Part shown: in pieces, positions 5,792-34,774 of the stretch
How the letters are laid out: each line of letters starts with the position of its first letter
How positions within the stretch are numbered: the stretch's first letter is position 1
NCBI GenBank assembly: GCA_001004885.1
Contig: LCRX01000006.1
Location: 99,079-141,119 of the forward strand
Origin: Candidatus Magasanikbacteria bacterium GW2011_GWA2_56_11
Lineage (GTDB): Bacteria > Patescibacteriota > Patescibacteriia > Magasanikbacterales > UBA922
Reading direction: 5' to 3'
DNA: 42,041 nt
The notes under the pieces: generated by a model
The model's database searches: none
Told to the model about the DNA's origin: nothing
Seen by the model: the letters and a program-made list of their open reading frames with translations, nothing else
Program-made: the position numbers and the translations under genes

Positions 5792-6354
5792 ACCGTTGGC
5801 GCTGTCAGCGGATACGAGCCGAGGACGGTGTACTTCGGTCCCCCCTCCCCGAGCTCGCTTTTGATAAACTCTAACCGGTCGATATTCCAGACCACGGGCT
5901 CAATTTTAAGAGTCGTAAGGCCGCCAATCGCGCCGTGGTCTTTGTTTCGGCCGAGGGTAATATGCGGCTTCCAGGCGCGCTCTTCCAATACCAAGCCCAT
6001 CCGTTTGAGCTCGCAGGTAAGACTGTGCTCCAGGTCGCGGCCGGCGTGATGTTCCTCGGCGGCGCGGGCGACAATCACATTCGGGTGGGCTTTGTTTGGG
6101 AAGCCGTCGAGGCCGTTGAGCCAATAACGGAAAGAACGGTGAGCCGAGGCTACCCGGCCGATGGCGGCGCCGACTGCCGGGCCAAGAGACTCGTTGACCT
6201 CGCCCAAAAAGCGGATAGTAACGTGCATGGCTTCGGGTTTTACCCAGGTAATGTGGGCGCGCGGATTCAGAGCTTTGAGCTCGGTTTGGGCCAGCGAAAT
6301 GGCCCTTTTTACCTCGGCCTCGACCGGAAAAGCAATGAATACTCTTTGCGTCAT
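5788..6354 (-). CDS. thpR: RNA 2',3'-cyclic phosphodiesterase
   Basis: A 188-residue protein of the LigT/ThpR 2H phosphoesterase family, near the normal length. The two catalytic HxT motifs are present: MHVTIRFLGEV (HVT at residues 44-46) and WKPHITLGR (HIT at 131-133), with the typical FIAFPVE start. The family hydrolyses RNA 2',3'-cyclic phosphate ends to 2'-phosphates in vitro; the cellular role is debated. It precedes the GT26 gene with a 4-base overlap. It is divergent from clpB, with about 70 bases between its start and the clpB -35. Confidence 0.93.
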   Translation of the reverse strand: MTQRVFIAFPVEAEVKRAISLAQTELKALNPRAHITWVKPEAMHVTIRFLGEVNESLGPAVGAAIGRVASAHRSFRYWLNGLDGFPNKAHPNVIVARAAEEHHAGRDLEHSLTCELKRMGLVLEERAWKPHITLGRNKDHGAIGGLTTLKIEPVVWNIDRLEFIKSELGEGGPKYTVLGSYPLTAPTV

Positions 6355-6395
6355 ATACTATAGAGGCCACCCGAGGATTAATATCGAGGCAAAAC

Positions 6396-6424
6396 TATGC
6401 TATAATAAGATAAAGTTTAGCATA
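6396..6424. other. Inverted repeat upstream of the clpB promoter
   Basis: TATGCTA (6396-6402) and TAGCATA (6418-6424) are inverted copies separated by 15 bases in the thpR-clpB divergent region. This could be an operator for an unknown regulator, or chance in AT-rich DNA. Confidence 0.25.
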
Positions 6425-6426
6425 AG

Positions 6427-6480
6427 TTGACAGTTTTTTCTACGGGTGTTATATTAGCACTCTCTATACTAGAGTGATAA
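6427..6480 (+). promoter_or_regulatory. clpB promoter overlapped by a CIRCE (HrcA) operator
   Basis: -35 TTGACA (6427-6432), 17-base spacer, -10 TATATT (6450-6455). The CIRCE inverted repeat begins inside the -10: TTAGCACTC (6454-6462), a 9-base spacer, and GAGTGATAA (6472-6480), which is 17 of 18 bases of the TTAGCACTC-N9-GAGTGCTAA consensus. Bound HrcA would cover the start point near 6462, so heat-inducible derepression of clpB is inferred. Confidence 0.92.
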
Positions 6481-6487
6481 GTCTATT

Positions 6488-9133
6488 ATGGTTCCCCAAA
6501 ATTTCACTCACAAATCCCAGGAAGCCATCCAGTACGCCCAACAGATAGCCAACGACAACGGCCAGCCCCAGGTGGAGCCCCCGCATTTGTTTATGGCGCT
6601 CATGGAGCAAGACGAAGGCGTCGTGGTGTCGGTCCTCAAAAAACTAAATGTCAATATTTTGGAGCTCACTTCCGAAGTCCAGGAGCTAATTGATGTTATC
6701 CCCAAGCAGGGGCCCACTCAGATGAACCGGGCTATCGGCCAGGTACTTTTGGGGCAGGCCATGATCTATATCCTCCAGGCCGCCGACCAGGAGGCCAAAA
6801 AGATGCACGACGAGTACATCAGCGTGGAGCACCTGCTGTTGGCTTTTCTTACAACCAAAAATCCGATCAGCGATTCGCTCTCCCGCCAAGGCGTCCAGCA
6901 CGAAGACGTGCTCAAAATTTTGGCGACTATCCGCGGCACGCAGCGCGTCGATTCGCCGGAGCCGGAGAGCAAGTACCAGGCGCTCGAAAAATACGGGATT
7001 AATCTGACAGAGATGGCGCGCAAGGAAAAGCTTGATCCGGTGATCGGCCGCGACGATGAGATCCGGCGCGTGATGCAGGTGCTCACCCGCCGCACCAAGA
7101 ATAACCCGGTTCTCATCGGCGAACCGGGGGTGGGCAAAACCGCCATTGTCGAGGGGTTGGCGCAGCGCATCGTCAACGGCGACGTACCAGAAAACCTCAA
7201 GGACAAAGAAATCATTTCGCTCGATATCGGGTCGCTCATCGCCGGCACCAAATTTCGCGGCGAGTTCGAGGAACGCTTCAAAGCCGTCATCAAGGAAATA
7301 GTCGAATCGCACGGCAAGATTGTCCTGTTTATAGATGAACTGCACACCATCGTGGGCGCCGGCTCATCCGAGGGCGCGGTGGATGCTTCCAACATGCTCA
7401 AACCAGGTTTGGCGCGCGGAGAGCTTCATATCATTGGCGCCACCACGCTCAAAGAATACCAAAAGCACATTGAAAAAGACGCCGCTTTCGAGCGCCGCTT
7501 CCAGCCGGTGTCGGTCATCGAACCCAACGAAGAAGACGCGATCGCTATTCTGCGCGGCGTCAAGGAAAAATACGAAGTGCACCACGGCGTGCGCATTACC
7601 GACCCTTCGGTCGTGGGCGCGGTGCAGCTGTCGCGTCGCTATATCAGCGACCGCTTCCTACCGGACAAGGCCATCGATCTTATCGACGAGGCCGCTTCGG
7701 CTTTGAAAATGCAAATAGACTCAATGCCGGACGAACTCGACAAGATGAAGCGCCAGATCATGAAGATCGAAATTGAACTCCGGGCGCTGAAAAAAGAAAG
7801 CGACGCCGAGTCCAAGGAGCGGCAGGTGAAGCTCAAAGAAGAACTCGCGAATCTCAAAGAACGCACCCAGGCGCTCGAGATGCAGTGGCAGCACGAAAAA
7901 GAGATCATCACCAAGATCCGCGAGTATAAAAAAGACATTGAAAAACTCAAACAGCAGGCTGAGATCGAAGAGCGCAAAGGAGATTTGCAGAAAGTGGCTG
8001 AAATCCGCTACGGCAAGATCCCCATGACCGAGGAAGCGATCCAAAAGCTGCAGACCAGGCTGGCCGACATTCAGCAGAAACGCGGCATCCTCCAAGAGGA
8101 AGTAACCGAGAAAGACATCGCGACCGTGGTTTCGCGCTGGACCGGGATACCGGTGGTAAAAATGCTCGAGGATGAAACCCGGAAACTGGCCCGCATGGAA
8201 GACGTGCTTTCCGGCCGCGTTATTGGGCAGGCCGAGGCCATCAAGGCTGTCGCCAACGCGATCCGGCGCAGCCGCGCCGGCATTTCCGAAGAAAAGCGGC
8301 CGATCGGTTCGTTCATCTTTATGGGTCCGACCGGCGTGGGCAAGACCGAGCTGGGCAAGAGCCTGGCCGAGTTTCTGTTCAACGACGAGAACGCTCTGGT
8401 GCGCGTGGACATGAGCGAGTACATGGAAAAGCACGCGGTCAGTCGCATGCTTGGCTCTCCGCCGGGCTATGTTGGTTTTGAGGAGGGCGGACAATTGACC
8501 GAAGTCATCCGGCGCAAACCCTATTCGGTTATCCTGTTTGACGAGATCGAAAAAGCGCACCCGGATATTTTCAACGTCATGCTCCAGATTTTGGAAGACG
8601 GCCAGCTTACCGACGCCAAAGGGCGCAAGGTAAATTTCAAGAATACCGTCATCATCATGACGAGCAACGTGGCGAGCGAAATGATCATGAATATGGGCCG
8701 GCGGGGCGAGTTCGGTTTCGGCGAGAAAAAACGCGGCCACGCGGGTCTGAAACAGCAGGAGGAAAAAATGCGCGAGAAAGTGATGGACGCGCTCAAAGAG
8801 CACTTTAAACCGGAATTTTTAAACCGCATCGACGACATCATCATCTTCCATCCCCTCTCGCGCGAGCAGGTGCGTTCGATTGTCGATCTGCAGATGCAAC
8901 TGGTGGCCGAGCGTCTGGACACGCAAAAAATTACCCTGGTTATTTCCGACGACGCCAAAGAATGGCTGGCTAAAAAAGGTTATGATGCCAATCTGGGCGC
9001 CCGGCCGCTCAAACGCGTCATCCAGCACGAACTTCTCGATAAACTGGCGATGCAAATAATCGAGGGGAAATTTGTTGAGGGAGACACAGTGAACGTGGCG
9101 GTGGATAAAGATGTCCTTGCCCTGACGAAATAA
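6488..9133 (+). CDS. clpB: ClpB-type AAA+ disaggregase
   Basis: An 881-residue Hsp100 chaperone. The order is a Clp-N domain (1-150), first AAA+ module with Walker [10 protein letters not shown] (211-219) and Walker [10 protein letters not shown], a long coiled-coil middle domain (about 405-535), second AAA+ module with Walker [10 protein letters not shown] (about 613-621), and a C-terminal small domain with GARPLKR. The middle domain marks it as ClpB rather than ClpA or ClpC. With DnaK/DnaJ it threads aggregated proteins through a hexameric pore. No clear Shine-Dalgarno precedes the ATG; the leader is about 26 bases and carries half of the CIRCE element. It stands alone between its promoter and a strong terminator. 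Confidence 0.96.
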
Positions 9134-10267: not shown

Positions 10268-10555
10268 TCAAATTCCCAGCATTGTTCGGAGTTCTTCGGA
10301 CGGCTGCCAGGGAGGGTTGAAAGTAACTTCGAGGGCAATCGTGGTAAAGCCCAGGTCTTGGAGCGCGGCATGTACTTGCTCCTTGAGCGCCGATCCGAAC
10401 GGACACAGTGGGGTTGTGTAAGTCATGATGACCCTGATCATTTCCTCGCTCAGGATGTCGACTTCATAAATTAACCCCATTGTCCAAACGTCAAGGTTAA
10501 TCTCCGGGTCCTTCACTGTTTTGATTTTTTCGACGACAGCGTCCTTGGTGATCAT
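10268..10555 (-). CDS. DUF59/MIP18-family Fe-S assembly factor (SufT-like)
   Basis: A 95-residue single-domain protein of the MIP18 family. Family signs are VKDPEINLDVWTMGLIYEVDI, the TYTTPLCPFGSAL segment with the conserved cysteine (C51), and the late VEVTFNPPW-like VTFNPPWQPSEELRTMLGI. SufT and PaaD-like relatives help mature or deliver Fe-S clusters to client enzymes. It overlaps the sufC stop by four bases (ATGA at 10552-10555), so it is coupled to sufC. Confidence 0.9.
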   Translation of the reverse strand: MITKDAVVEKIKTVKDPEINLDVWTMGLIYEVDILSEEMIRVIMTYTTPLCPFGSALKEQVHAALQDLGFTTIALEVTFNPPWQPSEELRTMLGI

Positions 10556-11277
10556 AGGTCTTGGTATCCCAGGGTTTCAATTTCCCGGGCCAGTTCCGGG
10601 CCGCCGCTTCTGACCAGGACGCCCCGACTCATGGCGTGTACTACATCGGGGAGGACAAACTCGAGGATCCGGTTGTAGTGGGTAATAAGGAGTATGCCGC
10701 GCTCCGGGCTGCGGTAGCGGTTAATACCCTCGGCCACGATACGCAGGGCGTCCACGTCTAATCCGGAGTCGGTTTCGTCGAGGATGGCGTATTTAGGGTT
10801 CAGGACCAGGAGCTGGAGTATCTCCGCCCGTTTTTTTTCGCCGCCGGAAAAGCCGACATTGATCGAGCGCCGGGCGAATTCGGGATCAATGCCGAGCGTC
10901 CGCATTTTCGCCTGCAGTTCCTGATGAAATTCAAGCGGCTGGCGGTTAGCGCCCGTGAGGGAGTTGGCGCTCAGGCGCAGAAAGTGCTCGGTCGAGACGC
11001 CGGCGATTTCCGGCGGGTATTGCTCCGAGAGAAACAAGCCCCCCCGCGCCCGCGCCTCTGGCTTGGCAGCGGTAATATCCGCGCCGTCAAGTTCTATTTC
11101 ACCCGCGGTAATTCGGTACTTCGGGTGCCCCATGATGGCATTGGCCAGGGTGGACTTGCCCGAACCGTTCGGCCCCATGATGGCGTGGACTTCGCCCGGC
11201 TTGATGGTGAGCGTTACGCCCTTGACTATGGGCTTGTCGCCGACAGAAATATGCAGGTTTTTGATTTTGAGACTCAT
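10552..11277 (-). CDS. sufC: SufC, Fe-S assembly ATPase
   Basis: A 241-residue soluble ABC-type ATPase. Walker A is GPNGSGKST (about 34-42), the signature is FSGGEKKRAEILQLL, Walker B is YAILDETDSGLDVDALR, and the switch histidine is in ILLITHYNRIL. The SufC-specific DETDSGLD and FLSEQYPPEI are both present. It binds SufB and SufD and drives opening of the scaffold. Its position after sufU rather than before sufB/sufD is unusual among suf operons. Confidence 0.96.
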   Translation of the reverse strand: MSLKIKNLHISVGDKPIVKGVTLTIKPGEVHAIMGPNGSGKSTLANAIMGHPKYRITAGEIELDGADITAAKPEARARGGLFLSEQYPPEIAGVSTEHFLRLSANSLTGANRQPLEFHQELQAKMRTLGIDPEFARRSINVGFSGGEKKRAEILQLLVLNPKYAILDETDSGLDVDALRIVAEGINRYRSPERGILLITHYNRILEFVLPDVVHAMSRGVLVRSGGPELAREIETLGYQDL

Positions 11278-11289
11278 AGATGAATGTTT

Positions 11290-11676
11290 TTAAGTCAGCG
11301 CGTCTTGAATTGTCGACAGGCAAAGCAGCGCGCATTTAATGCGCGTGTAACTTACAGGTATGCCGAGCATGTTTATCATATCAGTGTTCGTGATGGAGAG
11401 AATTTCGGTCGCGGTTTTGCCCTTGACGTAATCGGTAATGAGCGACGCCGCCGCCTGCGAAATGGCGCATCCCTGGCCCTGATGGCCAATGTCGGACAGC
11501 TTCCCCTCTTCCCAAGCGATCATTACCTCTATTTCGTCTCCGCAGCTCGGATTTAGTCCGCGGCGCTTGACGTCATAGCGTTTCGGGATTTTTTTGTTAA
11601 GCGGATGGCGAAACAATTCCAGAATCATTTCTTTGTAGACAGCCTCAATCTCGCTGTGCGGTAGCTCTAGGCGCAT
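11290..11676 (-). CDS. sufU: SufU-type sulfur acceptor / scaffold
   Basis: A 128-residue IscU-fold protein. Cysteines and the aspartate of the SufU zinc site are seen in NPSCGDEIEV, GQGCAISQAAASLI and RIKCALLCL. The insertion between the second and third ligands is of SufU type. In this type of system SufU accepts persulfide sulfur from SufS and passes it to SufBCD. Its start overlaps the sufS stop by ten bases, which fits the SufS-SufU partnership. Confidence 0.93.
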   Translation of the reverse strand: MRLELPHSEIEAVYKEMILELFRHPLNKKIPKRYDVKRRGLNPSCGDEIEVMIAWEEGKLSDIGHQGQGCAISQAAASLITDYVKGKTATEILSITNTDMINMLGIPVSYTRIKCALLCLSTIQDALT

Positions 11677-12878
11677 AGGACTTTCTTGGCATATCGCACC
11701 CCCTCTACCAGTCGGTCGATGTCCTCGGCGGTGGAATAGACGCCGAGCGAAGCGCGCGTCGCGCCGGTTAGCCCCAGGTAGCGCATAAGCGGCATAGTGC
11801 AGTGGTGGCCGGCGCGCACCACCACGCCGTGCTTGTCGAGGATGTCGGCTATGTCGTGCGGATGCGCGCCCTTGATCACAAAGGAGACGACTCCGGTGCG
11901 GCGGGAGATATCCGCGGGGCCGATTATTTTGACCTCTTTCCCCACTTTCTCAAGCGCGTATTCGGTCAGCCGCGTTTCGTGGGCGCGGATGGCCGCCAAG
12001 TCTAACCCGGTAATGAATTCGGCGGCTGCTCCGAGCCCGATCGCCTCGGCTATGGCAGGCGTCCCGGCTTCGAATCTCTCCGGAATGCCGGCCCATTCGG
12101 CCGTCTCGTAGGTTACGTGGCTTACCATCTCGCCGCCGTAGAAAAGAGGTTCCAGCCGGCGCAGGTGTTCACGGCGGCCGAAAAGCACTCCGCTGCCGGT
12201 GGGTCCGTACATTTTGTGGCCGGAGAAGGCCACAAAATCCGCTTCGAGATCGCGGACGTCGAGCGGCAAATGGGCAGCCGCCTGGGCCGCGTCGACGATG
12301 GTAAGCGCGCCGCGTTCGTGCGCGAGCGCGATCAGTTCACGCGCCGGAGAAATCGTGCCGAGCGTATTGGAGACCAGGGCAAAGCCTACGACTTTGGTAT
12401 TTTCGTCTATGAGCGTCCGGGCCGACGCCAGGTCAATCTCGTAGCCGGGCGTGAGTTCGACAAAACGCAGCGAAAACCCGCGCTCTTTGGCTGCCTGCTG
12501 CCAGGGAACCAGGTTGGCGTGGTGCTCCAGGCGCGTTAGGACGACATTATCCCTGCTTGTAAATTTTTGTGTCAGCCTCAGAGCCAGCCAATTCAGCCCG
12601 GCCGTCGTTCCGGAAGTGAAAATTATTTCGTCCGCGCTGGCATTGATAAACCGGGCCAGCGCGCCGCGGGCGTTTTCGTAGCGCCCGGTCGCCAGAGCCG
12701 ACAGCTCGTACACTCCGCGGTGGATGTTGGCCCGGTAGCCAGTGTAGTAGCTAGCCATGGCGCCGACCACGGCCTGCGGGGTTTGCGTGGAGGCGGCGTT
12801 ATCCAGATACGCCAGGTGGGGATGGCGGGCAAAAAGCGCAAAATGTTGTTTGGCGGCGGTGCCGGTCATAAGGTTCAA
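11667..12878 (-). CDS. sufS: SufS, group II cysteine desulfurase
   Basis: A 403-residue PLP enzyme. The PLP lysine lies in FSGHKMYGPTGSGVLFG and the persulfide cysteine in VVRAGHHCTMPLMRYLG, the compact active-site loop of group II desulfurases. TSGTTAGLNWLA and VDAAQAAAHLPLDV are cofactor-pocket motifs. It removes sulfur from L-cysteine to give alanine and a persulfide passed to SufU, encoded directly downstream. The gene overlaps sufD by four bases. A second desulfurase of group I lies at 15690-16925. Confidence 0.96.
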   Translation of the reverse strand: MNLMTGTAAKQHFALFARHPHLAYLDNAASTQTPQAVVGAMASYYTGYRANIHRGVYELSALATGRYENARGALARFINASADEIIFTSGTTAGLNWLALRLTQKFTSRDNVVLTRLEHHANLVPWQQAAKERGFSLRFVELTPGYEIDLASARTLIDENTKVVGFALVSNTLGTISPARELIALAHERGALTIVDAAQAAAHLPLDVRDLEADFVAFSGHKMYGPTGSGVLFGRREHLRRLEPLFYGGEMVSHVTYETAEWAGIPERFEAGTPAIAEAIGLGAAAEFITGLDLAAIRAHETRLTEYALEKVGKEVKIIGPADISRRTGVVSFVIKGAHPHDIADILDKHGVVVRAGHHCTMPLMRYLGLTGATRASLGVYSTAEDIDRLVEGVRYAKKVLCA

Positions 12879-20629: not shown

Positions 20630-20673
20630 CAGACGAATAAAAACGACCCCGAGAGGCCGTTTTTATTCGTCTG
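20630..20673 (-). terminator. Terminator of the KGG protein gene
   Basis: CAGACGAATAAAAACG (20630-20645) pairs with 20658-20673, and an inner CC/GG extension follows. The 3' arm on the minus strand holds a T5 run. It begins 3 bases after the stop codon. Confidence 0.75.
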
Positions 20674-20675
20674 GT

Positions 20676-20951
20676 TTACGTTCCCTGGGTTCCGGTCTCC
20701 CGCCGGCGTTCGGCGGCCCGCCGGCCGCCTTTTTGGCCGGCCCGTCTGGCCTCCTCCGAGGTAAATTCATGGGCTGTGCCCCGGGCATGCGCCGCCCGGC
20801 CGCCCAGGCTGGCGATACGCCTCTGCATGGATGGATCCATGCTGGCAAACCCACGCCGGCTGCGCCGTTTGCGCCGGTCTTCCTCCCCCGGACGCTCGGT
20901 TGAACCCCGGGCTTCACGTGGCGTCTGTTCCATATAGTTTAGAGAATACAT
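20676..20951 (-). CDS. KGG-repeat (con-10/YmdF-like) stress protein
   Basis: A 91-residue highly charged protein. It contains GFASMDPSMQRRIASLGGRA, AHARGTAHEF and TSEEARRAGQKGGR, the tandem KGG-type motifs of the stress-induced acidophilic repeat family (YciG, YmdF, fungal con-10). The N-terminal 30 residues (ETPREARGSTERPGEEDRRKRR region) are basic and probably disordered. The family is induced by desiccation, stationary phase or osmotic stress; its molecular role is not established. A start at the seventh codon (20933) is equally possible. Confidence 0.85.
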   Translation of the reverse strand: MYSLNYMEQTPREARGSTERPGEEDRRKRRSRRGFASMDPSMQRRIASLGGRAAHARGTAHEFTSEEARRAGQKGGRRAAERRRETGTQGT

Positions 20952-23202: not shown

Positions 23203-24753
23203 ATGAGACAACAACATGTCGCCGTTATTCTTCCGACTTACAATGAAAGGGAAAACATCTCGAGCTTGATTCCCGCTATAGTGAAAAATTTATCAACTTT
23301 GGACAATATCCGGCTGTCGATCGTAGTGGTGGACGATCAATCGCCGGACGGCACCGATCAGGCGGTCATAGAGTACATGCGGCAGTATTCGGGTCTATAT
23401 TTAATCCGCGGACGCAAACAGGGCCTTGGCGTCGCCTACCGCCGGGGCTTTACCTACGCTCTCGAGACTCTCCGGGCCGATTTGCTGGTGGAAATGGATG
23501 CCGACTGGTCGCATAATCCGGCCGACCTGCCGCGGATCATCAGCGCCGCCGATGGCGCGCGGACTTTCGTAATCGGGTCTCGCTATGTGCCTGGCGGCGC
23601 CACGGCGCGGGATTGGCCGCGCTATCGGCTGCTCAACAGCCTGGCCGCCAATTGGTGCGCCCGTTATATCGCCGGGTTGTCCCCTGTCAGGGATTGCACC
23701 AGCGGTTTTCGGGCTGTCTCGGCGGGAGTGCTGAAGCAAATCAGCTGGCCGCGAATTTCAGCCCGCGGGTATTCGTTTCAGATTCAACTTTTGGCCGAGG
23801 CCCGTCGCCAGGCGGCGAATATCAAAGAAGTCCCGATCCAATTCGCGGAACGACAGCAGGGAACCTCCAAATTAGGTTGGCGCGACATTCTGGAATTCGG
23901 CCTCAACTCGGTAAAAATCAGATTCACCACGGCTGCCAGCCGGCAGCCGCTGTACATAACCGCCGGAGTTTTACTGCTGGCTTTGGCGGCCGCGGCCTTA
24001 ACCGCCGACTTTTTTACTTTGGGAACCGCCGGTTTTACGCTCTTTTTCCTGGCGACGTTCCTCATCACGGCCCAGAGTCTGTTGACTCTTTTCGGGATGA
24101 TTTACGCTTGGGAAGACCCGGCGCGAGTGGAGCGCAATAATTCGCCGCGCGTTTTTCGGCCGCCGCACTATTCGTTCACCGCGATTCTGCCGGCTTACCA
24201 TGAAGAAACGGTGATCGCCGACACCATCCGGGCCTTGGCGGCCGTTGAATACCCGGCGGACAAAAAAGAGGTCCTGATCGTATGCCGTTACGACGATGCC
24301 GGCACTATCGCGGCGGTCAAGTCTACTTTGCGGGAGATCGGGGCGCCGTGGATCCGGCTCCTGGTTCCGGCTTATCTGCCCAAAAATAAGCCGGACAAAC
24401 TCAATTACGCCTTGGGCCAGGCGGAACACGATGTAGTCTGTATTTTTGATGCCGAGGATAACCCGCATCCGGATATATTTAACATCGTCAATACCGTCAT
24501 GTGCCGCGATGGCGCCGATATCGTGCAATCAGGAGTCCAGCTGGTTAATTTCCGCTCCAACTGGTTCTCGACCCTTAATGTTTTGGAGTATTTTTTTTGG
24601 TTCAAGTCAGTGCTTCACTTTTTTGCCAGCCAACAAGTAATACCTCTCGGCGGCAACCAAAGTAACTTCGCCTATAAGCCCAGAGTACAGAGGCAGCTTT
24701 ATCCTTGCGCTTTCCTCGGTGAAAACGCCTACATAACCGCCTTTAATCTTTAA
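23203..24753 (+). CDS. Double GT2 synthase (DPM1-like + cellulose-synthase-like), broken at its 3' end
   Basis: 516 residues from MRQQHVAVILPTYNERENIS. An in-frame ATG at 23143 adds only non-conserved sequence. Domain 1 (1-225) is dolichol-phosphate-mannose-synthase-like: VVVDDQSPDGTD, EMDADWSHNPADLP, IGSRYVPGG, DCTSGFRA. Two or three membrane helices follow (LYITAGVLLLALAAAALTA, LFFLATFLITAQSLLTLFGM). Domain 2 is a second GT2 with AILPAYHEETVI and IFDAEDNPHPDIF. After HFFASQQVIPLGGN the reading becomes unlike the family and stops, and the TED and Q-x-x-R-W motifs expected next are missing. The family's C-terminal membrane part continues in another frame from 24737. The gene therefore appears to have lost about 60 codons and the frame; the second catalytic site is probably dead. 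Confidence 0.8.
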   Translation: MRQQHVAVILPTYNERENISSLIPAIVKNLSTLDNIRLSIVVVDDQSPDGTDQAVIEYMRQYSGLYLIRGRKQGLGVAYRRGFTYALETLRADLLVEMDADWSHNPADLPRIISAADGARTFVIGSRYVPGGATARDWPRYRLLNSLAANWCARYIAGLSPVRDCTSGFRAVSAGVLKQISWPRISARGYSFQIQLLAEARRQAANIKEVPIQFAERQQGTSKLGWRDILEFGLNSVKIRFTTAASRQPLYITAGVLLLALAAAALTADFFTLGTAGFTLFFLATFLITAQSLLTLFGMIYAWEDPARVERNNSPRVFRPPHYSFTAILPAYHEETVIADTIRALAAVEYPADKKEVLIVCRYDDAGTIAAVKSTLREIGAPWIRLLVPAYLPKNKPDKLNYALGQAEHDVVCIFDAEDNPHPDIFNIVNTVMCRDGADIVQSGVQLVNFRSNWFSTLNVLEYFFWFKSVLHFFASQQVIPLGGNQSNFAYKPRVQRQLYPCAFLGENAYITAFNL

Positions 24754-25189
24754 AAAGCGCGAATGGCAAAAGCTGCCGACCCTGACGCAGCGCTGGCTGG
24801 TGGCCTACATACTGCTCTGGCCGATTGCGCAGACGAGCATGTTTCTCTATGTCTCCTTTTCGCTTGTCATGATGCTCTTCATTAAATTGCCCGTGATCCT
24901 GGCGATGACGTCTATTCTGCCCTTGTACGTGCTGGTTTTGCATTTGGTGATAATGAATGTGGGATTGTATGAGTTTACCAGGAAATACGGCGTTCGCTAC
25001 CCTTTTTGGATGCCTTTTAAAGTGGTAATCACGTTTATACCGTTTCAGATAATGCTCGGCCTGAGCGCGCTGCGGGCCGTATACCGTGAGTTCACGGCCG
25101 AACGCGGTTGGGAGAAAACCGAGCATACCAACGTACACCGCCCGCCTCTCAAAACGGCCACGCTTAAATTGCGCCGGCCGGTGAGCTGA
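24737..25189 (+). pseudogene. Detached C-terminal membrane part of the double GT2 synthase
   Basis: The frame opens after a TAA at 24734-24736 and reads PLIFKKREWQKLPTLTQRWL, then membrane helices (VAYILLWPIAQTSMFLYVSF, LPLYVLVLHLVIMNVGLY, FKVVITFIPFQIMLGLSALR) and RAVYREFTAERGWEKTEHTN. This matches the usual C-terminal end of BcsA/NdvC-like GT2 enzymes (REWxKLPTLxQRW, then two helices, then REFxxxRGWEKTxH). An ATG at 24800 could give an independent 129-residue product. I treat it as the 3' remnant of the upstream gene; a sequencing or assembly error is the other explanation. Confidence 0.75.
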
Positions 25190-25226: not shown

Positions 25227-27944
25227 ATGTTAACGCGCATTATCTCCAATCTAAAATCACGGCGCCATCTGGCTCTTATTATCGGTCTGTGCGCGCTGTC
25301 ACTCGGCGTCAACAGCATCAATCTGTTCGGTTTTCCGTCGTACAGAGAGGACGAGGGGACCTACGTGGCGCAAGCTTGGTCCGTCGTAAACCTGGGGCAG
25401 CTGGCGCCGTATACGTACTGGTACGATCACGCGCCGGCCGGCTGGCTGATACTGGCTCTGTGGCATGTTTTGACCGGCGGGTTTTTTATCGCCGGCCTGG
25501 CTGTCAACTCGGGCAGGATATTTATGGTCGTGCTCCAGGTCATAGCCACGCTGTTGGTGTACGTCATCGCTTGGCGCACCACCGGGCGGCGGGCCGCCGC
25601 CTTTATTTCGGCCGTCCTTTTCTCCCTTACGCCTCTGGCCATCATCTCGCATCGCCGGGTGCTTTTGGATAATATCATGGTAGTCTGGTTTCTGGCTTCG
25701 GTGTATTTCTTGACGAAGACGCCCAAGATAAGAAATTTCATTTTTTCGGCCGTAGCGTTCGCCATCGCGGTTTTGACCAAGGAACCGGCCCTGTTCTTCT
25801 TGCCGCCCTTGGTTTACCTCGCCTGGCGCGCCTGCGATAAGACGTCGCGGCATTTTGTTTTTGTGATTTGGCTGTCGATTATTTTTTTAGCCGTCTCGAT
25901 CTACCCTCTGTTGGCCATGCTCAAGGGTGAATTTTTCCCCAGCGGTACCTGGCTCGGCGGCCAGGAACCGCACGTCAGTCTGATAGAGGCCGTGGCCTTC
26001 CAGGCCAGCCGCGAGGGCGGATTCCTGCTTTCTTCCGACAGCACTTTCCAGTTCGCACTCAAGAACACCTGGATCGTGTACGGCGGTATCCCCCTCAGCT
26101 TGGCAGTGGTCGCTGTTTTTATCTCCCTCATTCGGCCGGCCAACTACTGGCAGCGGGGGTTTTCGCTGCTTTCGTTGTCTTACGTCTTGTTTATCCTGAA
26201 AGGCGAGATCCTGGACTGGTACATTATTCCGCTTATCGCCACCTCGGCCCTCAATCTCTCGGGCCTGTATTTAACTGTTCTTAACTGGGGCCGGCGGCTT
26301 AAAATCAGGGAACGCTGGACCGAGTTCGGTTTCGTGACTTCGTTTGTCGCCATCATCATTTATTCGTTGGCGGGCCAGGCCCATATTTTTACTGTTGACC
26401 AGACCAGCAACCAGCGGCAAGCTGTCGAGTGGATACGCCAGCATCTCGGCCGGGAATCGGTGGCGCTGATTGATAACTATCCTTTTGTGGATTTAAATCC
26501 CAGTTTGGGCAAGGATATTACCGAGGCCAATATCCACTATTACTGGAAAGCCGACACCGACCCGCAAATTACCCATGGAGTGCTTAATGATGACTGGCAG
26601 ACGATTGATTACCTGCTCATCACGCCGGCGATTAAGCGTACCCTCGACATTACAGATCTGGATTTGGTGGAGACGGCTTATGATAATTCTTTTGTGGTCA
26701 AGCGTTTCGCCAATACCGATCTCAGCCTGCTCGATTATCCGGTCGACATCCGCGAGGTTAATAACCGCGACGGAACGCTGAGCACCAGCTGGCGCTATTA
26801 CCGGGACCGGTTTATCCTGCCGGAGGGTCGGGTGGTAGATCCGACTGCCGGCAGCGAAACCACCTCCGAAGGCCAATCATACGCTTTGTTGCGTTCGGTC
26901 TGGGAGAACGACCGGGCTACCTTTGACCAGGTACTCGCCTGGACTGAGTCTGCTCTCTCCAATCCCGAAACCGGCCTGTTCGCCTGGCGCTACGGACAGT
27001 CCGCGCCAGGCGGCTGGGGCGTGCTCGATCCGGCCAGCGCCAGCGATGCCGACGAGGATGTCGCCCTGGCCCTGCTATTTGCCTCCAGGCGGTGGGGCGA
27101 CGACAGTTACGCCAAACGGGCACAGCAGCTGCTCGCCGATATTTGGGACCAGGAGGTCGTGGAGATTGACGGCCGCCTGCACCTGCTCGCCGGCACCCAA
27201 GCCAGGCGGGGCGATGGATACCTGGTGAATCCGTCTTATTTCGCGCCGGCCCACTACCGGATTTTCGCCGAAGCCGATACTCAACATAATTGGTACCGCC
27301 TGGCGGCCGACAGCTATCGGATAATACGAGAATTGGAGAATCTGCCCACAGGGGGGCAGATGACCAATCTTTTGCCCAACTGGGTGGTGGTCGATAAAAA
27401 CGGCGCTTACCGGCCGCTCAGCCCCGGCCGTTCGTCCCCTTCGGACCAGTACGGCTATGATTCCTTTCGCCTGATGTGGCGCCTGGCTCTCGACTATGTC
27501 TGGTTTGACGCCGAGGAGGCCAAGAATTATCTCGGCGAAGTCTTTCCTTTTTTCCGCGACGAATGGAATCGTCACGGAAAAATTTATGCCGTCTATTCGA
27601 CCGCGGGCGTCAACCAGGTGCCTTATGACGATATCAGTACCTACGCCGGAGCCATGTCCATTTTCTCGGTTATCGATCCGGATCTGGCCATAGAGCTCTA
27701 CGCTAAAAGTTTTTGGTCCGAGTATCAGCGGGGCTATTGGGGCGACGGCGACAATTATTACAACCAGAATTGGGGTTGGTTCGCGACAGCTCTTTATGCC
27801 CGCGATTTACCCAATTTGTGGCAGAACCCGGACGGCAAGGGATCGCTGGCGCGCACCGAGGGCCGGCGGGATGATTTAGCGGGTAAAAAGACAGCCCCGG
27901 GCGGGCCGGGGCTGTCTTTCAAATTAGAATCTGACTCTCATTAG
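25227..27944 (+). CDS. Fusion of a GT39-type membrane glycosyltransferase with a GH8-like glycosidase
   Basis: A 905-residue protein. Residues 1-390 are a polytopic PMT/ArnT-like enzyme: YREDEGTYVAQA (E41, D42, E43) in the first outer loop, DHAPAGWLI, and about ten helices. Residues 390-520 are a linker with GRESVALIDNYPF. Residues 535-835 resemble GH8 endoglucanases (BcsZ type): TTSEGQSYALLRSVW with E548 at the acid position, ASDADEDVALALLFA (D607-D611), and SDQYGYDSFRLMWRLALD with D745 at the base position. The helix would place the GH8 part outside the cell. The joint suggests a protein that builds and trims a beta-glucan-like polymer. The final 20-25 residues are read through a terminator hairpin, so the true stop may have been lost. 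Confidence 0.85.
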   Translation: MLTRIISNLKSRRHLALIIGLCALSLGVNSINLFGFPSYREDEGTYVAQAWSVVNLGQLAPYTYWYDHAPAGWLILALWHVLTGGFFIAGLAVNSGRIFMVVLQVIATLLVYVIAWRTTGRRAAAFISAVLFSLTPLAIISHRRVLLDNIMVVWFLASVYFLTKTPKIRNFIFSAVAFAIAVLTKEPALFFLPPLVYLAWRACDKTSRHFVFVIWLSIIFLAVSIYPLLAMLKGEFFPSGTWLGGQEPHVSLIEAVAFQASREGGFLLSSDSTFQFALKNTWIVYGGIPLSLAVVAVFISLIRPANYWQRGFSLLSLSYVLFILKGEILDWYIIPLIATSALNLSGLYLTVLNWGRRLKIRERWTEFGFVTSFVAIIIYSLAGQAHIFTVDQTSNQRQAVEWIRQHLGRESVALIDNYPFVDLNPSLGKDITEANIHYYWKADTDPQITHGVLNDDWQTIDYLLITPAIKRTLDITDLDLVETAYDNSFVVKRFANTDLSLLDYPVDIREVNNRDGTLSTSWRYYRDRFILPEGRVVDPTAGSETTSEGQSYALLRSVWENDRATFDQVLAWTESALSNPETGLFAWRYGQSAPGGWGVLDPASASDADEDVALALLFASRRWGDDSYAKRAQQLLADIWDQEVVEIDGRLHLLAGTQARRGDGYLVNPSYFAPAHYRIFAEADTQHNWYRLAADSYRIIRELENLPTGGQMTNLLPNWVVVDKNGAYRPLSPGRSSPSDQYGYDSFRLMWRLALDYVWFDAEEAKNYLGEVFPFFRDEWNRHGKIYAVYSTAGVNQVPYDDISTYAGAMSIFSVIDPDLAIELYAKSFWSEYQRGYWGDGDNYYNQNWGWFATALYARDLPNLWQNPDGKGSLARTEGRRDDLAGKKTAPGGPGLSFKLESDSH
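27887..27919. terminator. Bidirectional terminator inside the end of the GT39-GH8 ORF
   Basis: AAAGACAGCCCCGG (27887-27900) and CCGGGGCTGTCTTT (27906-27919) pair perfectly around GCGGG. T-runs follow on both strands. It lies before the plus-strand stop (27942-27944) and after the GH44 stop on the minus strand. Confidence 0.85.
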
Positions 27945-27947
27945 GGC

Positions 27948-30365
27948 TTAGGGAGTGAAGACAAAGGTGGTAACGCTTTCTGCCGGCAGAGTGGCAGCCA
28001 GCGCCTGAGAACTCGGCACGCTCATTGTGCCGACAGGCACTGGTTTGGCCGCCGAGGCGCTTAGGCGGTAGAGAGCGGCCTGCTTAAGGGGTTGCGCGTG
28101 CGACAGGCTGAAACCCACGGTCCGGGCGCTCGCGGCTTTGTTTATCGCCACCACCACTAGGCGGCCGTTGGCGGCATCGGTGCTCGCGTAAACCGAAGTT
28201 TCATCCGGGCGGGAGGTCAGAGCGGACACGCTTACGGCACCGAAACTGCCGCCCTGGCCGTCGAAGTTGCGGAACATGTCAAAGGCGCCGTAGATGAAGC
28301 GATCGTCGGTCGCGCCGATACGCCACCAGTTGGCGGCAAAGACGCCTTCACGGCCGAAGATACCGAGCACGTCAGCTTGCGCCAAGCCGCCAGATATGTG
28401 CGCTCCGCCGCCGTAGTTATATTCGGTGACAGCCAGTTTGGTCCCCGGATAATGGGCGGCAATTTTGTTCTTCATGAGCGGTATCAAGGCTATGGGCGCT
28501 CCGGTGGCAGCGGTAATCCAGCTGTTTTCTTTGTAAGTTGGATCCCACAGTGAGCGCGGGGCCTGGACACGCGCCGCGGCTATTTCCGGATCGCCGTCAT
28601 CGGCGGTGATGCGCCTCCCGCCGCCCTGCGCCTCCGGGTACCAGTGGATGTCGAGGACGTCGAGAAGGCGCTGTCCCGACTGCGTTTCTGCCTGGCGCAT
28701 CGCGTCGAGGTAGGTATTGATGAAGTCGCGTCCGTTCGCGTCCGGAGCGTTTTGCAGGCTGGCAAAACCGTTCCAGCCGTAGTTGGAAGCGCCGAACACC
28801 AGTCCTTGGGGCGCGACGCGCTTGATGCCGCGGGCAAAGGCTACAGTCTGGTTGATAAGACCCTGGTAAGTTACCGGATTGGGCTGGATACGCGCGTGCG
28901 TGTGCGACCAAAGATCCGGTTCGTTGTCGAGCGAGTAAAATATTTTTTTTGTCGGATCAGTTTTGGCGTACGGGAACTTGTTTTCCAGCCACGCCACAAA
29001 CTCATCCTGGTAAACCGCGTTGTCAAAGAGGTCGGGAGAGGCGCTTAGGGGACCGGCTTTCTCGGCGTAGCTGCGGCGGAAACGGGTGGAAAGATAATTC
29101 GGGGTTTTGTTAACATCGCCGTCGCCGGCTTTGTCAGCCGCCACGTAGCCCTGCACAGGCACTGTAATCAGGGTGGCAGCATTGCCTTTGTGGGCAAGGT
29201 CTACCCGCATCCGGACGGCCTCCCCGGGAGTGTCGCCGCCTCCGAGATAACTGTCATTCTGGTAAAGCCAATCGCTGCCGGCGTGCGAAGCGTTGTTTTC
29301 CCAGTTGTAGGCCGTGAGACGGTTGCCGCCGAAACGGGCGAAGGTCAGGTTGTGCGCCAGGCCGTCCCAACTGTTGGGGCTTTCCCCAAAATTGGTTCCG
29401 TATATGTACGGCGATATCGGCGCGCGCTTCTGCCCGGAATTGATGTTGAATATAACCTGCGCGTTGGCCGGCGGAACCGGCGTTGGCGTTGGCGACGGAG
29501 TCGGCGTCGGCAGCGGCGCGGGCACCGGAGCCGGCTCGGGCGTTACTCCCCCGATCGGTGCCGGCGAGCCGGTTTGACCGGAACTGCCGCCAGTCGGAGG
29601 CGTCGGAGCTTGAATGTTTTCAGCAGTGTGATAATTGTTTTGAACATAAATGGGTATTTGTTTGGTGGCGATGACTGTCCCCGCGGCATTGCGCGCGCTA
29701 AAGGTAAGTACATACGGTCCTTGGCCGCGCCAATTCCAGCCGCCAAGGTTTATTGTTACCTCTTTATGCGGATAGTCGGCGGTGTTTGTGGGCATTAGAT
29801 TTTGCTGCCCGCCGTCTACCTGCCAGTACATGGTATAGTCCGATACGTTAAGCCCCTCGACCAGAGCCTTTAGCGGCTGGGTGCCGGAGAGAGACGCGTT
29901 GGCGGTCGGCCACCACACGCTTATGCTCCGGGCGGCAGGGATTGCCGGAACCGGGTTCGCGACGGTTATTTTTCCGGTATCGTCGCCCCAATAAAGTATT
30001 CCGGACCAGTTTTGTCTGAAGATGCCTACCTTTATCGTATAGGATCCGGCGGCGGTTGGTTTCCAGCCGGCAGTAAAGGTGCGGGTCGCGCCTGAGGCAA
30101 TGTTTTGTCCGCTAAAGTATTGCTGGTATGCTTTTTGGCCGTTGGCCGAGTAAACCTCGATGTCGATGATGCCCCCGGCGAGCTCTGGGCCGGAGTTAGT
30201 CACCCGGCTCGCGATGGCCACTGTTTGTCCGACAACCGGATTGACGCTGCTCGCCGTACTCAGAACAGCGTAGTCGGCGGCATAGGCTGTCGAAGCGGAA
30301 AGGAACGGGGAAATAATTAACGCGGGAGTAATAAAACCTATAAGCAGGCGACGTAGAGTATGCAT
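27948..30365 (-). CDS. Secreted GH44 endoglucanase/xyloglucanase with Ig-like N-terminal domains
   Basis: An 805-residue exported enzyme. A signal peptide (1-29, ending STAYA) precedes two beta-sandwich domains: a CARDB-like one (about 31-135, TNSGPELAGGIIDIEVYSAN) and an Ig-like one with SISVWWPTANASLSG (about 145-242). A Pro/Thr linker (PAPVPAPLPTPTPSPTPTPVPP, about 278-299) leads to the GH44 domain (about 302-725): SPYIYGTNFGES, ARFGGNRLTAYNWENNASHA, the acid/base E482 in DNEPDLW and the nucleophile E648 in AVTEYNYGGG. A C-terminal beta domain (about 725-805) completes the GH44 fold. GH44 enzymes cleave cellulose, xyloglucan or related beta-1,4-glucans. It faces the GT39-GH8 gene across a shared terminator. 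Confidence 0.93.
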   Translation of the reverse strand: MHTLRRLLIGFITPALIISPFLSASTAYAADYAVLSTASSVNPVVGQTVAIASRVTNSGPELAGGIIDIEVYSANGQKAYQQYFSGQNIASGATRTFTAGWKPTAAGSYTIKVGIFRQNWSGILYWGDDTGKITVANPVPAIPAARSISVWWPTANASLSGTQPLKALVEGLNVSDYTMYWQVDGGQQNLMPTNTADYPHKEVTINLGGWNWRGQGPYVLTFSARNAAGTVIATKQIPIYVQNNYHTAENIQAPTPPTGGSSGQTGSPAPIGGVTPEPAPVPAPLPTPTPSPTPTPVPPANAQVIFNINSGQKRAPISPYIYGTNFGESPNSWDGLAHNLTFARFGGNRLTAYNWENNASHAGSDWLYQNDSYLGGGDTPGEAVRMRVDLAHKGNAATLITVPVQGYVAADKAGDGDVNKTPNYLSTRFRRSYAEKAGPLSASPDLFDNAVYQDEFVAWLENKFPYAKTDPTKKIFYSLDNEPDLWSHTHARIQPNPVTYQGLINQTVAFARGIKRVAPQGLVFGASNYGWNGFASLQNAPDANGRDFINTYLDAMRQAETQSGQRLLDVLDIHWYPEAQGGGRRITADDGDPEIAAARVQAPRSLWDPTYKENSWITAATGAPIALIPLMKNKIAAHYPGTKLAVTEYNYGGGAHISGGLAQADVLGIFGREGVFAANWWRIGATDDRFIYGAFDMFRNFDGQGGSFGAVSVSALTSRPDETSVYASTDAANGRLVVVAINKAASARTVGFSLSHAQPLKQAALYRLSASAAKPVPVGTMSVPSSQALAATLPAESVTTFVFTP

Positions 30366-33282: not shown

Positions 33283-34059
33283 TTATTGCCGGTTGTCAAA
33301 GACTTCCTGCAGGATGATCAAATCTTTCAGATCCGTGTCGTCGCCGTCATTAAACAACTCCGAGAGCACGATTAGGTCCCCCAGATTGGAGTCGCCTAAT
33401 ATGTTGCCCGTGCCTACGCCTCCGCCGTCAGCGGGCAGTCTCAGCCGCTGTCCCGGGAAGATAACGTCCGGATCCTCTATGTCATTGAGTTCCGCTATCT
33501 CGTCGAAACGGCTCGCGTCGCCCAGGAATTCCTCGGCAATGCCGCTTAACGTGTCGCCGGACTCAACCACCACTGTGCGCCGTCCCCCGATGACTCCGCT
33601 CGTCAGTCCGTCATTGAAGAGCGCCTCGAGGATGATGAGATCTCCGATGTCAGTGCCGTCTCCCCCGTCGCCCAGATTTAAGCCGCTGCCGTCCTCCCCG
33701 TCATTGAAGAGCGCCTCGAGGATGATGAGATCTCCCAGGTTCGACTGGCCGCCTCCGCTGCCGCCGAGTACGCCGCCGTCATCTCCCATTAGCGCCTCGA
33801 GGACTACCAAGTCTTCCAGGTTTATGTCGCCACCCAGATCCAGTCCGTTGTCGCCGTTGAACACGCCGTCTTCGTCGTCAAACAGCGCCGAGATAACGAA
33901 GAGATCGCTCAAGTTGCTACTGCCACCCAGCAAGCCGCTCATGTCAGTCTCCTCCCGGGCCGCGCCCGCGTTCGGGACAGAGACGACAAAAGTCATCACA
34001 GCCGCGGTGGTGAGGCCGAGCAAAGCGGCACTGACTTTTTTAAAGGTTTCGCGTAGCAT
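33283..34059 (-). CDS. Secreted LysM protein with six copies of a DL[IV][IV]LxxLF-type repeat
   Basis: 258 residues from MLRETFKKVSAALLG; a longer frame to 34242 only reads the R2 repeat backwards. A signal peptide (1-34, ending NAGA) precedes four acidic repeats at about 48-63, 79-94, 106-121 and 136-151, such as SNLGDLIILEALFNDG and TDIGDLIILEALFNDG. A LysM domain follows (about 162-208: VESGDTLSGIAEEFLG and PGQRLRLP), then two more repeats (224-239, 242-257). The Gly/Asp-rich spacers could bind calcium. LysM suggests attachment to peptidoglycan. Repeats 3 and 4 share 38 identical bases (33608-33645, 33698-33735), so they arose by recent duplication. It lies 10 bases after the sigma factor stop and may be its target or partner. 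Confidence 0.85.
   Translation of the reverse strand: MLRETFKKVSAALLGLTTAAVMTFVVSVPNAGAAREETDMSGLLGGSSNLSDLFVISALFDDEDGVFNGDNGLDLGGDINLEDLVVLEALMGDDGGVLGGSGGGQSNLGDLIILEALFNDGEDGSGLNLGDGGDGTDIGDLIILEALFNDGLTSGVIGGRRTVVVESGDTLSGIAEEFLGDASRFDEIAELNDIEDPDVIFPGQRLRLPADGGGVGTGNILGDSNLGDLIVLSELFNDGDDTDLKDLIILQEVFDNRQ
33608..33735 (-). repeat. Tandem coding repeat (90-base period)
   Basis: A 38-base sequence occurs identically at 33608-33645 and 33698-33735. It encodes the core of repeats 3 and 4 of the LysM protein. The exact identity against the divergence of the other repeats implies recent duplication or conversion. Confidence 0.9.
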
Positions 34060-34069
34060 ATATTTGCGG

Positions 34070-34774
34070 TTAGAGTGTTTGAAAACTAGAACCCATCTCA
34101 AAAATAATTCCGAGACAATTTTGGCCTGCTTCGAGCGAAAATTGTCCGGGTTGAGGAGGCATAGTGGTACTATGGCGACGAGAGCCGGACAATTTGCAGC
34201 CGGAACAGGTGCAAAATTGAGCCGGAAGGGTGTCCAGTTCATAGCTCAAAGCCGACTTAGCCCGGCGTAAGAGCGTTTTGACCGTGTTGAGCGGCAGACC
34301 GAGTTTGCCCGCTATCTCATCGTAAGTCAGACCCTGCCAGTAATAAAGCCTCAGTACGATGCGATACTTCGAAGGCAAATGGTTGAGCCCGTTATGCAGG
34401 TCTATGCGGCGTTCGATTTCCGGACCGTTCAGGTTTTCGCCGTCATGACCCGCGGACAGGGCCGCGTTTTTTCTGGCCTGCTTTCCGGCCTGCTCGCGCT
34501 GCTGTCGGCGCAGCCAATCGTAGACCGTCCGCTTCACAATAGTAAAAAGCCAGGTAGAAAATCTTTTTTGGTCATCATAGCTGGACAGGGCCTGGTAAAG
34601 TTTGATAAAAGATTCCTGCGCCAAATCAGCGGCATCAGACTCATTGCCGACGAAACGGAATATATAATGGCGCACGGCTCTGTCGTAGGCCCCCATTATC
34701 TGGCCAAAGGCTTCCAGGTCTCCCTCGCGCGCGCGGCGAATAAGGGCGTCTGGTACGCTAACGTGTAACGGCAT
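34070..34774 (-). CDS. ECF-type sigma factor with a repeat-derived C-terminus
   Basis: 234 residues. Region 2 (about 10-90) holds YDRAVRHYIFRFVGNESDAA, DLAQESFIKLYQALSSYD and FSTWLFTIVKRTVYDWLRR. Region 4 (about 125-180) holds LNHLPSKYRIVLRLYYWQGL, TYDEIAGKLGLPLNTVKTLL and RRAKSALSYEL. No sigma 3 domain, hence ECF type. From about residue 184 to the end (PAQFCTCSGCKLSGSRRHST onward) the sequence is encoded by R2 copy B read on the minus strand. The sigma fold ends just before it, so the protein is probably functional with a foreign 51-residue tail. No recognisable anti-sigma factor is adjacent; the secreted repeat protein follows at once. Confidence 0.9.
   Translation of the reverse strand: MPLHVSVPDALIRRAREGDLEAFGQIMGAYDRAVRHYIFRFVGNESDAADLAQESFIKLYQALSSYDDQKRFSTWLFTIVKRTVYDWLRRQQREQAGKQARKNAALSAGHDGENLNGPEIERRIDLHNGLNHLPSKYRIVLRLYYWQGLTYDEIAGKLGLPLNTVKTLLRRAKSALSYELDTLPAQFCTCSGCKLSGSRRHSTTMPPQPGQFSLEAGQNCLGIIFEMGSSFQTL
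34087..34228 (+). repeat. R2 palindromic repeat, copy B
   Basis: 142 bases, differing from 17361-17503 at only a few positions (around CATCTC/CATCCC and TTTTGGCCTGCTT/TTTTGTGCCTGTTT). Same palindromic centre CATAGT-GGT-ACTATG (34160-34174). It forms the 3' end of the sigma factor gene on the opposite strand. Confidence 0.9.

Follow-up and report, generated by a model that had tools for sequence, protein, structure and literature searches.

Does a membrane protein with a cellulase-like domain help a Patescibacterium to digest polysaccharides, or does it help to build one at the cell surface? The question is raised by one gene in a stretch of 42,041 nucleotides (the window: contig LCRX01000006.1, positions 99,079 to 141,119) from Candidatus Magasanikbacteria bacterium GW2011_GWA2_56_11, an organism of the Patescibacteria lineage with a genome of 1.25 Mb in 23 contigs that is 99% complete. 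By sequence and predicted structure, the 905-amino-acid product of this gene unites a PMT-type (GT39-like) GT-C glycosyltransferase with an extracellular GH8 barrel, as proposed in an initial annotation made from the letters alone. Since the same fusion recurs beside a polysaccharide-synthase gene in many relatives, the locus probably serves to make and shorten a polysaccharide of the cell surface, not to feed on cellulose. The specific reading advanced here, to which we give a probability of about 0.58, is that the fused protein finishes, at the outer face of the membrane, a surface polysaccharide made by a synthase-type system.

A GT-C half and a GH8 half in one frame

The two halves are recognized by separate profiles within a single unbroken frame (Table 1). 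The C-terminal half matches PF01270 (Glyco_hydro_8) over residues 521–832 (E 3.6e-51, 174.6 bits, cut-off 24). The membrane half matches PF02366 (PMT; E 1.9e-9, 37.9 bits, cut-off 22.7) and PF13231 (PMT_2; E 1.7e-8, 35.3 bits, cut-off 26.1), both within residues 81–229; the latter profile presumably spans further GT families besides GT39. The best NCBIfam name for the C-terminal half is BcsZ (PRK11097, 1.4e-44), with a score of 152.5 against an equivalog cut-off of 299. Searched by sequence against solved structures, residues 1–515 give no match at E 1, although the fold search matched PMTs.

An AlphaFold2 model, built from an alignment of 33 rows (the window and relatives' loci), has a mean predicted local distance difference test (pLDDT) of 88.5 and a predicted template-modelling score (pTM) of 0.68. 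In a Foldseek search with this model the top 45 rows are all GH8-type enzymes. VIA-align places residues 510–868 on CelA (1cem; Z 42.9, 330 residues at a root-mean-square deviation (rmsd) of 2.0) and on BcsZ (3qxf; Z 38.6), while residues 7–505 lie on Pmt4 (9i5l; Z 29.2, matched by residues 10–391) and Pmt1-Pmt2 (6p25; Z 28.8). The C-terminal half is thus predicted to be the (alpha/alpha)6 barrel whose absence from the model would have spoken against a GH8 domain. The catalytic acids named in the initial annotation, E548 and D745, and D607 of its SDADED segment align with CelA E95, D278 and D152 (1cem chain positions + 32); we take their roles to be acid, base and helper, respectively. E548 stands opposite a Gln in 1kwf, presumably the E95Q mutant of CelA, and the positions of D607 and D745 are also kept in BcsZ. 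All three residues being present, the active site is predicted to be intact. It would lie on the outer side of the membrane: a topology assigned by hand from hydropathy, model helices and loop charges gives the GT-C half about 11 membrane helices, with the N terminus inside and the long C-terminal part outside. The first outer loop carries the DE pair, catalytic if PMT/ArnT-type enzymes are, as we assume, a guide.

Conservation of the fusion and its gene neighbours

Relatives were gathered in a single scan of genome contigs with the whole fused protein, which yielded 75 loci, followed by local searches with the window domains. The open reading frames (ORFs) of these loci are stop-to-stop frames, not gene calls, and their domains were labelled by phmmer searches that used proteins of the window or of the loci as queries, which divergent DPMS, GH5 and GlxA genes may escape. 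The GT-C + GH8 fusion occurs in one frame in 22 of the 75 loci (25 proteins; three loci hold two in tandem) and is therefore real, not an assembly accident. Nineteen of the 22 loci are labelled Patescibacteria or one of its candidate phyla, two Chloroflexota, and one, a short contig that may be misbinned, Methylophilaceae. The fusion is thus conserved and widespread in Patescibacteria and occurs twice in Chloroflexota. GT-C proteins of the family that lack GH8 come from Chloroflexota, from Actinomycetota (Arthrobacter and Streptacidiphilus among them) and from a small number of Patescibacteria. Within the window's order GH8 is present in 3 of 86 genomes, each time in a long frame (714–919 amino acids) with GT-C. 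In a quick GT-C tree of 83 rows, 31 of them fused, the fused label needs five changes, and the starred branches force at least two; partial and duplicate loci (the window copies, L098, L120, L053, L074 and most short loci of the phylum sample) are excluded. A quick GH8 tree has long branches.

The novelty claimed initially holds in part. The domains are already known, but the fusion and its tie to a GT2/GT-C pair are new relative to the literature searched: no GT-C + GH8 fusion was found described in full-text searches, whose scope left out subscription papers and preprints. The architecture is nonetheless not confined to this genome, as the examination of genome context in relatives makes plain.

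The most constant neighbour is a synthase-type GT2 gene, which lies immediately 5' of the GT-C gene in 73 of the 75 loci (exceptions, L018 and L023). This bears on what the GT-C half does. Its nearest solved folds are the protein O-mannosyltransferases Pmt4 and Pmt1-Pmt2, and it passes the PMT Pfam cut-off, so that it could have true GT39 function, glycosylating proteins, with the GH8 as an unrelated passenger or glycan editor. The constant pairing with a synthase-type GT2 and with endo-glucanase families, together with the lack of a sequence match to any solved PMT, makes this improbable.

The partner that does vary is the accessory enzyme. Over the 75 loci it is a fused GH8 in 22, a separate GH8 in 5, a GH5 in 8 and a GlxA-like oxidase in 23; none was found in 17, which is an upper bound because divergent genes may escape phmmer. 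GH5 and GlxA-like proteins were used as queries over 95 loci, including these 75. Among unfused loci chosen for Pfam scans, GH5 cellulases lie near the pair at L029, L030 and L034, a GlxA-type galactose-oxidase-like protein at L049, and DPMS-GtrA proteins at L047 and L049. The GlxA-like protein scores 424 bits on NCBIfam NF052501, under the cut-off of 800; its 23 loci are all in Actinomycetota. In L026 the GT-C is fused to a GH3 domain (3.3e-46). Since the accessory enzyme changes while the pair stays, the GT2/GT-C pair forms the fixed core, whereas the enzyme that edits the chain outside differs with lineage. The L026 protein (6063–8486) is a Shapirobacteria GT-C of the same family with GH3 in place of GH8 and a GH5-like gene nearby.

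GH8 was also surveyed in an even phylum-wide sample of 379 Patescibacteria genomes, 23 of which contain it (24 matches). Eight matches are fused as in the window and 12 lie in the row GH8, GT2, GT-C on one strand. One is in a 728-amino-acid protein directly 3' of a GT-C::GH8 fusion (G191), one is fused to a different membrane protein behind a GT2 (G271), one ends the row GT2, PMT_2 protein, GH8 (G337) and one stands alone (G384). G337 is the unfused counterpart of G271, their membrane parts matching at 3e-15 (phmmer). These contexts were read from 20 fetched regions, with G180, G191 and G419 judged from short loci and G191 also from its longer counterpart L004, in which the ORF lengths (881 and 728 amino acids) are identical. 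Altogether, 23 of the 24 matches are tied to GT2/GT-C glycosyltransferases, in two kinds of fusion with different membrane partners and in two unfused gene orders.

This distribution matters for the reading of the fused protein as a membrane-tethered cellulase with which polysaccharides of plants or a host are degraded as a food source. The GH8 family is one of cellulases, a secreted GH44 glycosidase is encoded next door in the window, and a 2025 mBio survey, in the part of it consulted here, counts GH8 among the cellulases of the Candidate Phyla Radiation (CPR) (PMC12153355). However, 23 of 24 matches adjoin or join polysaccharide-making genes, so the food-degrading interpretation of GH8 in Patescibacteria/CPR is probably wrong; for the fused protein itself, where the GT-C site is kept more strictly than the GH8 acid (see below), it is very improbable. 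The biosynthetic rather than nutritional setting suggested initially is borne out by the same count and by the upstream GT2.

The conserved Patescibacteria row of GH8, CelA-like GT2 and PMT_2-type GT-C (L101–L111 and L113) forms a compact cellulose-like system with a GT-C; the L101 GT2, the one scanned from these rows, reaches 269.7 bits against the CelA model, whose cut-off is 699.1. A protein at L118 (7530–10298, minus strand) joins GH8, with Lys as its acid, to a membrane domain that lacks a Pfam match and resembles the PMT_2 protein of L114.

A proposed finishing enzyme at the outer face and an interrupted synthase

In the proposed mechanism, the separate neighbouring GT2 synthase would make a beta-linked chain in the cytoplasm and thread it outward. 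A DPMS-like domain, often fused to the synthase, would load a sugar onto polyprenyl phosphate, and the carrier would be flipped. The GT-C would then move the carrier's sugar onto the emerging chain at the outer face, as a side group or cap. Finally, the GH8 barrel, tethered just outside the membrane, would cut the backbone and so set chain length or release the chain, as BcsZ in cellulose systems. We infer the four reactions, their sugars, order and acceptor, and their action on one polymer; the domains, sites, topology and gene links are read from sequence or predicted structure. The product is likely a glucan, and the company of GH8, GH5 and GlxA suggests glucose as the sugar. Both domains do sit on one protein, as expected of the fused synthesis-and-trimming enzyme postulated initially, but the GT-C half is unlikely to be a polymer synthase, a role that the separate GT2 gene fits instead.

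The same gene set could serve a different end, in which the GT-C attaches the completed polysaccharide, or a sugar that links it, to an anchor of lipid or protein, and the GH8 trims the attached material. PMT-type enzymes usually glycosylate proteins, and Patescibacteria, taken here as monoderm, would need an anchor. The donor-making DPMS-like domain, though, is often fused to the synthase, and therefore a monosaccharide donor fits better than a polymer donor; anchoring is accordingly quite unlikely.

The architecture of the GT2 protein was modelled on an intact relative, the 725-amino-acid protein of L004 (27 aligned rows; pLDDT 87.3). Its DPMS-like domain lies on 5mlz (Z 29.0, rmsd 2.0 over 228), and its synthase-like domain on PcManGT (6yv7, Z 28.8) and BcsA (9b8v, Z 28.1), which are tied, with hyaluronan synthase (8snc, Z 26.5) next. 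A synthase fold with membrane helices is therefore predicted for this intact relative only. Sequence searches agree with a DPMS-plus-synthase protein (DPMS 5mlz at 5e-30). On the cellulose synthase models TIGR03030 (cut-off 699.1) and PRK11498 (cut-off 992 bits), the window GT2 scores 21.1 and 21.6, and the homologue at L115 reaches 48.5 and 37.2 bits, under both cut-offs. At L115 and at L119 the GT2 gene and the fused gene both appear undamaged.

Several observations weigh against a finishing enzyme on a synthase-made glucan. Mannose rather than glucose may be involved, because DPMS, PMT and PcManGT, the nearest folds, are all mannose enzymes; PcManGT, which ties for the top place among solved structures matched by the synthase domain, is not known to make a long polymer. 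A DPMS-like gene is absent beside some GT2/GT-C pairs in the phmmer searches of the loci, which divergent ones may escape. The GH8 site is also often lost: both catalytic residues are present in 19 of 33 fused rows (19 of 31 distinct, two row pairs being identical), and the acid, the base or both are missing in 14 of 33 (12 of 31 distinct). Among separate GH8 proteins both are kept in 19 of 20 and lost in one (Fisher p 0.008 for fused against separate, kinship ignored). Such losses indicate that cutting would be dispensable in some members and not essential in every fusion. The window GT2, finally, lacks TED and QxxRW as assembled.

The DE pair of the GT-C, by comparison, is D and E in all 31 of the 33 aligned rows that reach that column. 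Set against the frequent loss of the GH8 site, this suggests that GT-C activity is the constant one and that the GH8 may be a chain-binding part in some members. Where fused copies are degenerate, an intact GH8 can lie alongside: in L004 the acid of the fused copy is Arg and the following ORF has an intact GH8, and L013 holds two tandem fusions, with a degenerate GH8 in the first and an intact one in the second. The additional L004 protein (10540–12723), the 728-amino-acid one right behind the fused copy, has about 370 N-terminal residues without a Pfam match before its GH8.

In the window genome itself, the GT2 gene is interrupted. Homology stops near 24657 and resumes in another frame beyond 88 bases that occur once in the genome, and about 70 residues coded by relatives, including TED and QRTRW, are absent. 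A six-frame hidden Markov model (HMM) test over the break leaves model positions 214 to 283 missing, with no match in any frame of either strand. An inverted segment was considered, the reverse complement resembling the TED region by eye, and discarded, the minus strand being unsupported by this test. Of the 80 GT2 ORFs that include a C-terminal part, 76 contain QxxRW; the four without it are the window GT2, its two copies (L121 and L122) and the contig-edge L075. The break may be a mutation or an assembly error. As the gene is interrupted in the assembly, the first step, and with it the system, may be dead in this organism. The locus could thus be a decaying remnant whose fused gene has outlived its substrate, which is compatible with a finishing role in relatives: catalytic motifs are missing, the frame is changed and a search of the genome for a second copy of this GT2 found none. 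On the other side, the fused gene has an unbroken frame and a predicted active site that is complete, further GT2 proteins occur elsewhere in the genome (one with QQRRW), and the metagenome-assembled genome (MAG) may contain an assembly error; decay is rather unlikely.

The GH44 gene ends 3 bases short of the fused one, and its product, judged by eye, begins with a typical signal stretch. Both neighbours named initially, a GT2 and a secreted GH44, are therefore present, but the former is interrupted and the latter is not conserved. GH44 was found near none of the other loci examined, one of the 379 Patescibacteria genomes has a GH44 match above the cut-off, and the family was dropped as a conserved partner. 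The GH44 neighbour is probably accessory rather than a conserved part of the system and, because of that single occurrence, probably a recent acquisition. Elsewhere in the window, a LysM-domain protein adjoins an ECF-type sigma factor (33283–34774, minus strand), and small reading frames of odd composition, one Gly/Arg/Ala-rich with KGG-like segments, lie beside a DUF5671 gene (20663–20951, minus strand). No tRNA was found in the window.

Table 1. Coordinates, strand and basis of the features in the window
Feature	Position	Strand	Basis
Fused GT-C::GH8 protein, 905 amino acids	25227..27944	+	Single ORF (ATG 25227 to stop 27944), Pfam, predicted structure, fusion shared by 22/75 loci
GT-C (PMT/GT39-like) membrane domain, residues 1–390	25227..26396	+	Pfam, fold match, hydropathy and positive-inside loops
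D42-E43 (DE pair), first outer loop, expected GT-C catalytic site	25350..25355	+	Alignment
Small extracellular alpha/beta domain, residues 391–509, from last membrane helix to GH8 barrel	26397..26753	+	Model secondary structure
GH8 catalytic domain, residues 510–868	26754..27830	+	PF01270, 1cem fold match
E548 codon, putative general acid (CelA E95 column)	26868..26870	+	Alignment to 1cem and 1kwf
D607 codon (CelA D152 column), within SDADED	27045..27047	+	Alignment to 1cem; D in BcsZ too
D745 codon, putative catalytic base (CelA D278 column)	27459..27461	+	Alignment to 1cem; BcsZ keeps D745 position
GT2 gene, 5' part: DPMS-like domain (~23212–23898) and start of synthase-like GT2 domain	23203..24753	+	Pfam GT2 twice, 5mlz 5e-30, intact homologues
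88 bases without homology, frame change across	24658..24745	.	Six-frame HMM test
GT2 gene, 3' part, other frame: C-terminal membrane helices of synthase domain	24746..25189	+	Homology to relatives
Secreted GH44 glycosidase with CARDB domain, convergent	27948..30365	-	PF12891, 8e-54

Comparison with known systems

Collectively, the loci may define a new class of polysaccharide machine in Patescibacteria, Chloroflexota and Actinomycetota, a tentative proposal that falls somewhat short of even odds. It would consist of an extruding GT2, an outer-face GT-C that decorates the chain from a DPMS-made polyprenyl-phosphate donor, and an exchangeable editor of GH8, GH5, GH3 or GlxA type, packed into two proteins and four domains in Patescibacteria, where some fused GH8 domains would be non-catalytic chain binders. 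Since the fusion physically ties a GT-C to a synthase-type polymer, it offers a testable case for the outside modification of synthase-made chains from lipid-linked sugars. It is also a compact two-gene candidate for making a surface polymer in small symbiotic bacteria, for which hardly any such polymers have been described.

The closest likeness is to BcsZ, which shares the GH8 fold and active site and acts outside the membrane beside a GT2 synthase. In cellulose systems, as noted in the initial annotation, it is a separate protein (E. coli bcsZ), whereas the window GH8 is fused to a GT-C and is no separate secreted protein in a bcs operon; the neighbouring GT2 scores far under the BcsA cut-offs. 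The ORFs scanned showed no BcsB-type partner, no search having been aimed at BcsB itself. The GT39 PMTs (Pmt1-Pmt2 and Pmt4) share the GT-C fold, the DE pair and the topology; the window GT-C differs in being fused to a glycosidase and paired with a synthase GT2, and its sequence matched none of the solved PMTs.

In Streptomyces a beta-(1,4)-glycan is synthesized by CslA together with GlxA and an endoglucanase, CslZ, according to the part of the source consulted (PMC4736821). That system likewise combines a GT2 synthase with an accessory oxidase and a glucan-cutting enzyme, and 23 of the 75 loci have a GlxA-like gene along with their GT2/GT-C pair. The portion consulted names no GT-C gene in cslA-glxA-cslZ (PMC4736821), and in the Patescibacteria loci that were searched phmmer found nothing GlxA-like. 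In Actinomycetota (L035–L076), the GT2/GT-C pair stands with a GlxA-like radical copper oxidase (the same 23 loci), often with a DPMS-GtrA protein, and this set looks like an uncharacterized sister of CslA-GlxA.

For the GH44 neighbour only, the likeness is to EpsB, presumably of Myxococcus: the neighbour scores 245.5 bits on NF041873, far under the cut-off of 1250, and is not conserved beside the fusion. GtrA/GtrB/Gtr systems, which decorate O-antigen or wall polymers, share a DPMS/GtrB-like donor enzyme and an outer-face GT-C, and Arthrobacter loci fuse a GtrA-type domain to the donor enzyme. The difference is that here the GT-C is tied to a synthase-type GT2 and to a glycosidase.

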